Origin: an uncultured Clostridia bacterium
GTDB lineage: Bacteria > Bacillota_A > Clostridia > Oscillospirales > Oscillospiraceae
DNA: 5,190 bases
NCBI GenBank assembly: GCA_946410505.1
Contig: CAMKAP010000153.1
Coordinates: forward strand, 1-5,190
Reading direction: 5' to 3'
Made by a program: the position numbers and the translations under genes. The notes under the pieces were generated by a model. That model searched no databases. It worked only from the letters and a program-made list of their open reading frames with translations, and was not told the DNA's origin. Of this stretch, positions 241-2,094 are shown piece by piece. Positions within the stretch are counted from its first letter, which is position 1; each line of letters starts with the position of its first letter.

Positions 241-474
241 TCAAGCCGCTGTCATACCTATGACTGTTTTTGGATCGGCAAAAATACGAACCTGAAAAGT
301 GAGGGTTCATCACCGTCTCGCCTGCTTCTGGCGGAGGGTGAGGCTGTCCGCAATCATGGCGATGAATTCCGAATTCGTGGGTTTTCCCTTGATATTGCTC
401 ACCGTGTAGCCGAAGTACTTCTGGAGCACCTCGATATCCCCGCGGTCCCAGGCCACCTCGATGGCATGGCGGAT
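241..474. repeat. Direct repeat copy 1 of the spo0A 3' end and flank (partner at about 1857-2094)
   Basis: Bases 310-474 align without gaps to 1930-2094, with about 21 mismatches in 165 by my count. Similarity continues past the stop codon: AGCCGCTGTCATACCTATGA at 244-263 resembles AGCCGCTTTCAAACCTATGA near 1857-1876, and AAATACGAACCTGAAAA resembles AAATATGAACTCGAAAA. The longest identical block I found is 26 bases, at 440-465 and 2060-2085. Homology stops sharply at 474/2094 on the spo0A-internal side. The copies are in the same orientation, about 1.6 kb apart, and enclose the insert. Confidence 0.85.
310..474 (-). pseudogene. spo0A: Truncated second copy of spo0A, last 54 codons only
   Basis: The minus strand encodes 54 residues from IRHAIEVAWDRG to the stop at 312-310. 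They match residues 214-267 of the intact Spo0A at 1930-2733 except for one Arg/Gln difference near the end. This segment runs from the recognition-helix region to the C-terminus of the DNA-binding domain. The reading frame upstream of 474 is unrelated to Spo0A and meets a stop without a plausible start, and the receiver domain and most of the DNA-binding domain are missing, so it should not make a working regulator. Almost all base differences from the intact copy are silent, so the fragment was recently part of a functional gene. It is best read as the displaced 3' end of the resident spo0A, or a remnant of a second spo0A allele. Confidence 0.88.
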
Positions 475-496
475 TTTCGGGACTTTCGTCCCGAAA
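475..496. repeat. Perfect inverted repeat at the spo0A fragment junction
   Basis: TTTCGGGAC at 475-483 pairs with GTCCCGAAA at 488-496 around the loop TTTC. It starts at the very base where homology with the intact spo0A ends. No T-run follows on either strand, so it is not an obvious terminator. It may be the end of the inserted segment or a recombination site. Confidence 0.6.
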
Positions 497-658
497 GAGG
501 GGACGCGCTCTCACCCTTCCAGAAGCAAGCAGATCATGGACGATTTATTGCTTTATTCATTGGTTTGGTTCTTCCCTCTTAATGGGGATGTATGTATGGT
601 ATCACAAGCGGCGAACCGAAGAGAATTGAATTGGCGATTGAGGGGCATGAAGGCGTGA
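497..658. other. Intergenic stretch with no convincing gene
   Basis: This piece lies between the junction palindrome and the terminator of the membrane-protein gene. Short open frames exist on both strands, but none has a good ribosome binding site or recognisable protein similarity. The minus-strand sequence at 532-503 has partial similarity to the plus-strand sequence of the spo0A 3' end near 321-348 (shared TGCTTCTGG, then GGGTGAG, then GTCC). It may therefore contain a short inverted scrap of that end. Confidence 0.5.
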
Positions 659-691
659 TATAAAAACAGCAGGGAGAGGTTTGCTCCCTGC
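659..691 (-). terminator. Intrinsic terminator of the membrane-protein gene
   Basis: On the minus strand GCAGGGAG (691-684) pairs with CTCCCTGC (676-669) around a 7-base loop, followed by TGTTTTTAT. The stem is 8 bp and GC-rich with a proper T-run, and it begins 26 bases after the stop codon at 718. It gives the insert's only intact gene its own transcription unit. Confidence 0.85.
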
Positions 692-717
692 CGTTAGTTA
701 TGTGCTGCTCGGCCAAT

Positions 718-1461
718 TTATTCTCCGCAAAGAAACGCAATAACCCTTTCCGTTTCTTCTCTTGTCAGCATTGTTTTTGTCATGTCAGGCATAACCATGT
801 TACTGGCCCCATAAACGTCATGAGTCTTTTCTAAATAATCGTCAGCATATTTCTTGTTACTTGAAACCACCCGAAACAAAGGCCGGAAATTGCATCTGTC
901 TCGTGATGAACCAACAACAAATTGGCGCAGAAAGGGGTCTTGTCCGGCAAGCAGAAGATCTGATTGATTTAGTTTAAACTCGGCAACAAATGGTTTTTTT
1001 CTGTCCTCGCTTCGATAAAAGATGGCCCATTTTTCCGTTCGTTTTATCTCTCCGGTGGTGTAGTGCGCTTCTTGAACATCCCACCCACCAGTTGTTACGC
1101 CGCCTACAGTAGCTGCTGTGAAGGTAGCCGAAGCCGGGACATATTTATTGTACACCTCATAATACCGATCCGTGGAAAGAATAACATGATTTTCTTTTGC
1201 TCTCTTCTCAACCGTTACAATGCCGGAATAGTTATCAAGAACGAGGTTTTTTCGTGCTCGCTTTTGAAAACTTGTTACTTTGATGCCTAAGATGATAAAG
1301 AAAATGGAGAATACCAACAACAGGCAAAATACAATGACAGCGGCAGTGGATCCACCGGCCGTTGTAATCAGCAGCAGAAAGAGCATGACAAAACTGAGAC
1401 CGAAGCCGGTTAAAAAGGGATGGTCCTCTATTGCCTGAAATAGCTCCACGATTGTTTGCAT
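718..1461 (-). CDS. Hypothetical membrane protein with two N-terminal helices
   Basis: I do not recognise the family. The 247-residue protein starts at the ATG at 1461, chosen because GGAGGGAAGG lies just upstream; an in-frame ATG six codons earlier has no such site. Residues about 17-34 and 39-61 are strongly hydrophobic and form a helical hairpin. The basic cluster KRARK (67-71) follows, so by the positive-inside rule the remaining ~180 residues are probably cytoplasmic. That soluble part has a Gly/Thr-rich stretch at about 113-127 (TFTAATVGGVTTGGW) and many charged residues, but no catalytic motif I can name. It is the only intact gene in the insert, reads the same way as spo0A, and has its own promoter and terminator. 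Its base composition is more AT-rich than its chromosomal neighbours, consistent with acquisition by transfer. It could be a cargo gene for defence or surface stress, but nothing in the sequence proves a role. Confidence 0.8.
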   Translation of the reverse strand: MQTIVELFQAIEDHPFLTGFGLSFVMLFLLLITTAGGSTAAVIVFCLLLVFSIFFIILGIKVTSFQKRARKNLVLDNYSGIVTVEKRAKENHVILSTDRYYEVYNKYVPASATFTAATVGGVTTGGWDVQEAHYTTGEIKRTEKWAIFYRSEDRKKPFVAEFKLNQSDLLLAGQDPFLRQFVVGSSRDRCNFRPLFRVVSSNKKYADDYLEKTHDVYGASNMVMPDMTKTMLTREETERVIAFLCGE

Positions 1462-1535
1462 GCTTCCTTCCCTCCGCATTGCACAGTACTGCTTTTTCTC
1501 TGTCTTCCGGCCTAAACAACGTCAAGCGAGAAAAA

Positions 1536-1551
1536 AGTGAAATTATTCACT
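1536..1551. promoter_or_regulatory. Palindrome AGTGAA-N4-TTCACT, possible operator
   Basis: The two 6-base arms are perfect complements and lie just downstream of the predicted -10 box at 1566-1561, so over the likely start of transcription of the membrane-protein gene. Position and symmetry fit a repressor site; the short arms in AT-rich DNA leave chance as an alternative. Confidence 0.35.
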
Positions 1552-1560
1552 GTATATTTT

Positions 1561-1589
1561 ATTATATCATGACGTGACGTTAAACGCAA
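1561..1589 (-). promoter_or_regulatory. Probable promoter of the membrane-protein gene
   Basis: On the minus strand TATAAT (1566-1561) is a perfect -10 box, with TTGCGT (1589-1584) 17 bases upstream as a weak -35. It lies about 100 bases before the ATG at 1461, beyond the end of the broken recombinase frame, so the cargo gene can be expressed independently of it. Confidence 0.55.
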
Positions 1590-1595
1590 CCATAT

Positions 1596-1769
1596 CTACC
1601 TGAGGAAGATGGAAAACGATGCTGGAAAGATGTTTAACTGCTCCCTGCACCAGCGTTCAAAGAGCCGAAGCGTCTGTTCGTATGACGCCATTGTTTTTTC
1701 CCTCAGTTGGGTGCTCCGACAGTACACCATGAACTCATCAATCTGCCAATCAAAATCTGTATTTGTCAT
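1596..1769 (-). pseudogene. Truncated tyrosine recombinase/integrase, N-terminal fragment
   Basis: The frame starts at the ATG at 1769, with GGGAG about 9 bases upstream, and encodes 57 residues. MTNTDFDWQIDEFMVYC followed by REKTMASYEQTLRLFERW is typical of the SAM-like, core-binding N-terminal domain of clostridial tyrosine recombinases (a helical domain that grips DNA next to the catalytic domain). These proteins normally run to about 300 residues and end in a catalytic domain with the R-H-R-Y residues. Here similarity ends around 1628, and a few unrelated residues lead to a stop at 1596. The catalytic domain is absent from the window, so the protein cannot recombine DNA. Inverted and direct repeats sit right at its 5' end, as expected for a recombinase beside its own recombination site. 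Confidence 0.75.
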
Positions 1770-1772
1770 AAA

Positions 1773-1822
1773 AAACACTCCCAGTTTATCAGGATTTGTA
1801 CCCCAATAAACTGGAAGTGTTT
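1773..1822. repeat. 16-bp inverted repeat at the recombinase start, candidate core site
   Basis: AAACACTCCCAGTTTA (1773-1788) and TAAACTGGAAGTGTTT (1807-1822) are inverted copies with one mismatch, separated by 18 bases. The left arm includes the recombinase's ribosome binding site. Paired inverted arms around a short spacer resemble a tyrosine-recombinase core site, so recombinase binding here could also repress its own translation start or promoter. The repeat is seen; the function is inferred. Confidence 0.6.
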
Positions 1823-1857
1823 ATCGGTTCGGCGAAAAAAGTTTATCGGTTCGCCGA
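1819..1857. repeat. Tandem 17-bp direct repeats GTTTATCGGTTCGSCGA
   Basis: Copies at 1819-1835 and 1841-1857 match at 16 of 17 bases and are 22 bases apart, about two helical turns. The GTTTATC core occurs again at 1784-1790 and, on the other side of the insert, at 236-242 beside the first spo0A flank. Such short repeats next to an inverted-repeat core resemble arm-type binding sites of an integrase. The second repeat ends where homology to the first spo0A flank begins. Confidence 0.6.
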
Positions 1858-2094
1858 GCCGCTTTCAAACCTATGAAGCAAATATTGATCGTTTTTTTGT
1901 CTAAATATGAACTCGAAAACCCAGTGTTTTCACCGTCTCGCCTGCTTCTGCTGGAGGGTGAGGGAGTCCGCGATCATGGCGATGAACTCGCTATTGGTGG
2001 GCTTTCCCTTGATGTTTGACACCGTATAGCCGAAGTACTTCTGCAGCACCTCGATGTCGCCGCGGTCCCAGGCCACCTCGATGGCGTGGCGAAT
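1857..2094. repeat. Direct repeat copy 2 of the spo0A 3' end and flank
   Basis: This is the partner of 241-474, located within and just downstream of the intact spo0A. Coding-part identity is about 87 percent by eye, while the encoded residues differ at one position only. The three serines of the shared segment use TCA, AGC and TCC here against AGC, TCG and AGC in the other copy. The flank after the stop codon is also related but more diverged. Confidence 0.85.

Follow-up and report, generated by a model that had tools for sequence, protein, structure and literature searches.

Two silently diverged spo0A 3' ends around a decayed insert point to phage-like elements that integrate at the end of the sporulation master regulator gene

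Introduction

Insertion at the 3' ends of genes is a known habit of mobile elements. In PMC4701971, integrative and conjugative elements (ICEs) and prophages with tyrosine integrases target the 3' ends of conserved protein genes (guaA, rpsI, rplL, lysS, and rpmG), and PMC6563490 describes 3'-distal gene targets in Thaumarchaeota. Sporulation genes host another set of elements, for which PMC10747680 and PMC6957869 name skin (sigK), SPbeta (spsM), vfbin (spoVFB), spoVR, gerE, and yin (yabG), with almost all of these intervening elements placed in mother-cell genes according to PMC6957869. Here, we analyze a stretch of 5,190 nucleotides from an uncultured Clostridia bacterium (contig CAMKAP010000153.1; the whole stretch is called the window throughout), in which an insert lies directly behind the sporulation regulator gene spo0A. 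Our analysis indicates that this insert (about 474 to 1930) is very probably the decayed remnant of a site-specific element that integrated into the spo0A 3' end, and related viruses that appear to use the same spo0A site turn up in other spore-forming bacteria.

The spo0A gene decides whether spore formers sporulate. The elements described below share several traits with the ICEs and prophages at gene 3' ends: the integrase adjoins the target, the repeats correspond to the gene 3' end, the target stays whole, and tandem insertions occur. They differ in that the target is the sporulation master regulator and not a housekeeping gene, in that their repeats can be longer (88 bp in genome G628 and at least 126 bp in genome G607, against 12-54 bp in PMC4701971), and in that the replacement ends can be extensively recoded at silent positions. 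With the skin-type elements, they have in common prophage-like insertion in sporulation genes of spore formers, whereas skin-type elements split their genes and require excision for restoration, and spo0A, the first regulator of the pathway, stays whole. Among the titles and abstract openings listed by our searches of the open literature, a scope outside which supplementary tables and subscription journals lie, none names spo0A as a place where elements integrate, and the accessible parts of PMC5027557 and PMC5749712 do not name it as one.

Results

Two spo0A 3' ends border the insert in the window

The window carries a complete spo0A gene, with a TIGR02875 match covering residues 4-263 of its 267 residues, which shows the target gene to be full length, and a second, headless spo0A 3' end on the same strand beyond the insert (Table 1). 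The two copies each encode 54 residues and a stop, and they differ at 21 of 165 bases in 15 codons; the sole residue change falls at codon 48, which is CGC (Arg) in the headless copy and CAG (Gln) in the complete gene. All three serine codons (26, 35, and 44) swap between AGC and TCN, through 3, 3, and 2 base changes. A direct repeat of the spo0A 3' end is thus present at both insert borders, and a repeat search of the window recovers the same pair. BLASTN aligns the copies at 84% identity over 193 bases (E 6e-58), with a weaker second block at 233-263, so that their likeness runs on into the 3' untranslated stretch. These counts bear out the original prediction, made from this sequence, that two near-synonymous spo0A ends flank the insert and that each serine switch takes at least two base changes; the terminator that it placed at 197-224 is likewise present, as a stem at 196-225. 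The spo0A gene is not interrupted in the window, a skin-like split of the target being absent, and the tyrosine-integrase elements leave spo0A whole, not broken.

The divergence between the copies was then set against that between species. Over 47 codons (141 bases), the window copies differ at 19 bases and at no residue, while the spo0A end of a locus from a different species (L006) shows 17 and 18 differences from the two copies over the same 141 bases. The window copies are as far apart as the spo0A ends of separate species. This observation is joined by a tree of 80 spo0A ends, built from 78 ends out of 80 fetched loci (the best 80 of 590 confirmed stretches) plus the two window copies, in which the latter are not sisters and the left copy (310-474) groups with L004 at a support of 0.87. 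Drawn from 141 bases, the tree would count as modest evidence, in agreement with the distances, and on those 141 bases only, both favour the earlier expectation that the copies are not recent sisters. The fetched stretches of the 80 loci contain no second spo0A fragment; for two of the loci (L073 and L010), a spo0A fragment lies on another contig of the same genome. Separately, L036 carries a second full-length Spo0A-like gene (13964-14773) about 3 kb behind spo0A, whose C-terminal part is 47% identical; it was considered as a displaced fragment and rejected, being a full-length paralogue.

The insert has a G+C content of 43%, against 62% in the spo0A body, and directly behind spo0A it holds the N-terminal remnant of a tyrosine integrase. 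This remnant is 79% identical over 47 residues (E 5e-27) to the integrase of L010, which is longer and occupies the corresponding place behind spo0A, and 44% identical over 39 residues to the full-length integrase of L083. Up to its start codon stands a strong hairpin, probably a terminator or attenuator. The window has three members of an arm-like motif family, all of them on the minus strand and within the predicted arms; as 56 of 200 window shuffles reach as many matches, these occurrences count as evidence through their placement and not their number. Motif placement, hairpin, and integrase start together suggest a layout of attL, integrase start, cargo, P arm, and attR, where attL and attR are the two attachment (att) sites bounding an integrated element. 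Most of the element is missing from the window, and what is left is a dead remnant, the bulk of it presumably lost by deletion.

Table 1. Features of the window discussed in the text
Feature	Position	Strand	Basis
spo0A, complete, 267 aa from ATG	1930..2733	-	TIGR02875 spore_0_A, E 1e-93, above cut-off; PF00072 and PF08769
Last 54 codons of working spo0A (attL-side copy)	1930-2094	-	Part of the complete gene
Headless second spo0A 3' end (attR-side copy, displaced end)	310..474	-	PF08769 positions 60-104, E 1e-16
Candidate crossover interval in the spo0A copy (codons NSEFIAMIADS)	1963..1995	-	14 identical bases at 1973-1986
Candidate crossover interval in the displaced copy	343..375	-	14 identical bases at 353-366; placed from L120 and G628
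47-residue N-terminal stump of a tyrosine integrase, in open frame 1596-1778	1629..1769	-	Alignment with L010 and L083 integrases
Strong hairpin and T run up to the integrase start codon, with likely ribosome-binding site	1774..1821	-	-30.2 kcal/mol, z -9.0; terminator-like
Arm-like motif ACCGATAAAC, P' side	1841..1850	-	Motif scan; putative arm function
Arm-like motif ACCGATAAAC, P' side, second copy	1819..1828	-	Motif scan; putative arm function
Arm-like motif ACCAATGAAT, P side, upstream of displaced end	555..564	-	Same-side enrichment in relatives; putative function
Putative membrane protein, 253 aa, inside the insert	718..1479	-	Open frame; membrane by sequence reading
Terminator behind the displaced end	196..225	-	Predicted stem

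An integrase family tied to the end of spo0A

Full-length relatives of the window's integrase (L083, L073, and L086) match PF00589 (Phage_integrase) at E 1e-33 or better. The L083 protein is related along its whole length to XerC/XerD-type recombinases (TIGR02225, E 7e-46, 157 bits; TIGR02224, E 2e-43, 149 bits), and its bit scores fall far under the respective cut-offs of 330 and 335, so that these models make it neither XerD nor XerC. A family-profile search of up to 2.5 kb behind spo0A at the 80 loci, four of which offer fewer than 600 bases there, found integrases at L073 and L010, with L070 (E 0.013) left out of the count. Smaller traces stand behind spo0A elsewhere, namely a 37-residue integrase piece at L054 and, by eye, an integrase start of about 10 codons at L006.

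A class sample of 391 genomes was searched with four spo0A-adjacent integrases. The 19 matches are split by a clear gap into 8 close ones (E at most 6e-109) and 11 distant ones (E 2e-41 to 1e-45). All 8 close integrases, from 7 genomes including the seed G004, lie directly behind a spo0A end, as found by tblastn for 7 and by eye for L131, which begins inside LRLKNKVS-stop; the fetched flanks of the 11 distant ones hold no spo0A (tblastn, E 1e-4). Among 398 genomes sampled from the phylum, the search returned the seed and two more matches, G665 and G632, both behind spo0A and the latter decayed. G632 is also a genome with two Spo0A_C genes (C1:325575-325886 and C5:75122-75433), the decayed integrase lying behind one of them. 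Over 16 intervals, 139-215 bases separate spo0A from an integrase that follows it in like orientation; when folded, all 16 show a hairpin before the integrase start at -18.7 to -32.1 kcal/mol, despite differing sequences. The arm-like motif occurs 24 times in these spo0A-integrase intervals (12 of 16) against 1.5 in shuffles (maximum 6 in 200 shuffles), a count that is not independent because the motif was picked from those same intervals. Nearer to a test is the other (P) side, where it occurs 21 times in 4500 bases, or 4.7/kb against 0.86/kb overall, and in 13 of 18 loci, one of which (L175) had been seen earlier as L084.

Relatives of the integrase are numerous, with 2367 protein clusters at E 1e-50 and 1923 at 1e-80 for a second alignment, two sets that may overlap. 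Among the 120 clusters listed per set are, by integrase likeness, members from Paenibacillus, Brevibacillus, Bacillus, Geobacillus, Priestia, and Faecalibacterium. Among annotated phages, 630 and 10 records matched, none at 60% identity or more, and the matches listed (30 and 10) reach at most 32%; a search of annotated phages for spo0A ends gave 14 unannotated faecal contigs.

Delimited elements and displaced ends in other genomes

The clearest counterpart to the window is G628, where a single contig holds spo0A, the integrase, and, 16.3 kb on, a second spo0A end, and where the element between them encodes terminase, portal, and capsid proteins. Its two ends share 88 identical bases, after which the last nine codons (KLRLKNKVS) are all different and all synonymous. 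This is the window's pattern in pure form, with an element-supplied recoded end and the host end displaced. In G612, the 30.8 kb that separate spo0A from a second spo0A tail include portal, head, and tape-measure genes, and this tail carries a second integrase and marks a tandem. Two identical 126-base spo0A ends, the first truncated by the contig start, lie 8 kb apart in G607, where the integrase is interrupted by a stop. The displaced end lies on another contig in G004 (21 differences and 2 residue changes in 50 codons, stop included) and in G001 (10 differences and 1 residue change in the 27 codons behind an insertion). Direct repeats of the spo0A 3' end therefore border the insertions in the window, G628, G607, G612, G004, and G001. 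The earlier proposal of an element that integrates at the spo0A 3' end and brings its own replacement end thus finds its counterparts in related genomes and in the viral contigs described below; the elements it envisaged, with a spo0A-like end beside an integrase, do exist in other genomes, and the silent recoding it read from the window is matched in G628.

Viral contigs and proviruses with spo0A ends

Integrase alignment yielded 13 viral contigs, 7 of which have more than 200 bases upstream of the integrase. A spo0A end stands there in 6 of these 7 (that of L106 read by eye), and the sole miss, L116, is a distant relative at 24% identity. As L104, L105, and L115 had first been found through their spo0A ends, L106, L110, and L111 are the independent cases. 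In L123, no spo0A tail is seen in the roughly 160 bases preceding the integrase, a stretch too short to decide. A spo0A end without the gene body, the type expected of attP, the attachment site carried by the element, is found in L110/L117, L111/L120, and L115/L086, which may represent a free form or a tandem insertion. In L117, a capsid gene (PF17236) lies to one side and long frames that read as tail-like to the other, L120 has frames that read as amidase-like and integrase-like along with the shortest attP-type copy (about 20 codons), and the surroundings of L086 hold a second integrase match.

Two scans for spo0A-end patterns returned 26 and 44 stretches, which together make up 47 loci, and 14 of 28 scanned records searched carry an integrase of the close family (E 1e-74 or better). 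In 10 of these 14 proviruses (G1014, G1016, G1022, G1023, G1028, G1029, G1030, G1033, G1035, and G1037), the integrase lies at one end and a spo0A tail in the same direction near the other, with G1037 having a spo0A tail at both ends; in G1032, G1034, G1038, and G1039, the tail is directly upstream of the integrase. Because the records were picked for spo0A tails, they bear on layout and not on frequency. Integrases of a second group (E 8e-45 to 1e-49) lie in the opposite direction beside spo0A tails in G1013, G1018, G1019, G1021, G1025, and G1039, and at the contig end opposite the tail in G1015.

Several side observations concern these and other records. G1013, G1015, and G1025 (L171, L173, L195, L189) are large records of 65-69 kb with a second-group tyrosine integrase, which faces away from the spo0A end in G1013 and G1025, and the two contig ends of G1025 show one and the same spo0A tail, as expected of a circle. 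A different arrangement is seen in G009 (40,216 bp; L094 1-1562, L087/L170 at the right end), a phage-like contig that carries at one end a large recombinase of the serine type (PF00239, PF07508, PF13408). It splits spo0A, one end reading ...FGYTIHT then GQVS-stop and the other DRGKPTNSEFIAMIADKIRLRLRAA-stop, and its insertion would truncate Spo0A unless excised, which brings this phage nearer to the skin-type kind. For G010 (L088/L188), only the second (DRGKPTNSEFIAMIADKIRLRLRAA-stop) end is seen. Relatives of the G009 recombinase in 5 of 391 genomes have no clear spo0A piece in their fetched flanks by tblastn (L217, L220, and L221 without a match at E 1; L218 and L219 with weak ones at E 0.067 and 0.02).

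Discussion

Proposed mechanism and alternative explanations

We propose that attP holds a copy of the last 20 to 55 or so spo0A codons between arm sites and that the tyrosine integrase would recombine it with the same codons of the host spo0A. The shortest attP-type copy (L120) and the end of identity in G628 would place the exchange inside the roughly 33 bases coding NSEFIAMIADK. Through this exchange, the host gene would keep its body and gain the last codons, stop, and hairpin of the element, while the host's own spo0A end would be displaced to the element's far side. Since a functional Spo0A tail has to come from the attP copy at each integration, this copy would drift at silent sites, and a drifted copy could come to resemble the gene of another lineage. 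The hairpin may both end the spo0A transcript and hide the integrase ribosome-binding site. If the crossover in the window took place at 353-366/1973-1986, the Gln of codon 48 would derive from the element and the Arg of the fragment from the host.

Copies that have diverged as much as species, with a likeness extending into the 3' untranslated stretch, might also result from a foreign spo0A locus joined by ordinary homologous recombination, with no integrase at work and the integrase stump a bystander. We regard this as unlikely, since it leaves aside the tie of the integrase family to spo0A ends in the sampled genomes, the arm-like motifs that flank both copies, and the same layout in proviruses. 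Two copies that lie 1.6 kb apart in the same orientation would suit a local duplication in which the headless spo0A end later decayed; silent-only divergence, a between-species distance, non-sister placement, and fetched stretches of 80 spo0A loci free of any second fragment speak against it, and local duplication with simple decay was rejected on divergence and tree, which leaves the idea with hardly any probability. An assembly chimera joining the spo0A ends of two strains is in turn very improbable, as the same architecture is found on single contigs in G628, G612, and G1037 and the protein of the insert's open reading frame (ORF) is recorded on two contigs.

Several observations nevertheless weigh against interpreting the insert as the remnant of an element specific for the spo0A end. 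The catalytic domain is not in the window's integrase copy, of which some 47 N-terminal residues without a Pfam match are left, and no recognised phage or transfer genes remain in the insert. Among 245 genomes of the order of G001, none has an integrase match at 1e-50, a limit that G001's own integrase piece (129 residues, at a contig end) also falls short of, so that intact copies look rare there. For G514 and G419, a search for the far end of the element did not rise above noise, and these elements are not delimited. Upstream of the proposed crossover as well, in what would be untranslated element DNA, the left copy differs only silently, which implies that this part was recently in a working gene, as the site-specific reading requires; its likeness beyond the stop codon, where it resembles L006, suggests an older scar at the same site. 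None of the compared genomes is of the window's species, so that the comparison does not include an empty site.

Implications and further observations

The site-specific integration proposed here would have consequences for both host and element. Should a broad phage family dock at the last codons of spo0A, the C-terminus, stop, and terminator of the master regulator would be phage-derived in lysogens, and a docking site highly conserved among endospore formers could aid the spread of these phages across hosts. A replacement end recoded at silent positions would offer a sequence signature for finding such elements. With the integrase downstream of spo0A, codirectional and separated from it by a hairpin, transcripts started at the induced spo0A promoter could read through into it; it is conceivable, though we hold it only tentatively and think it rather doubtful, that the elements listen to the sporulation decision in this way, such read-through switching the integrase on at commitment to sporulation and timing excision or spore entrapment. 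The coupling of integrase expression to spo0A transcription thereby becomes testable. If a phage of the G009 type does sever spo0A, it would act as an outright on/off switch atop the pathway.

The cargo left in the window comprises the putative 253-aa membrane protein, for which Pfam, PHROGs, PADLOC, and NCBIfam gave no family at the thresholds applied. Among 5.8 billion proteins, it has two further relatives, P0002 (62%) and P0003 (31%), and the three share YVPASATFTA..VGGVTTGGWDV with small changes. No Rfam match reached gathering scores, and matches to plasmids were set aside as irrelevant. Beyond the displaced end, a sigma-70 promoter-like site with a 12/12 match (TTGACA-17-TATAAT; 185-213, minus strand) overlaps the terminator and points toward the frame starting at 51 (MEKKRVEWIDTLKCLCM), which may be acyltransferase-like.

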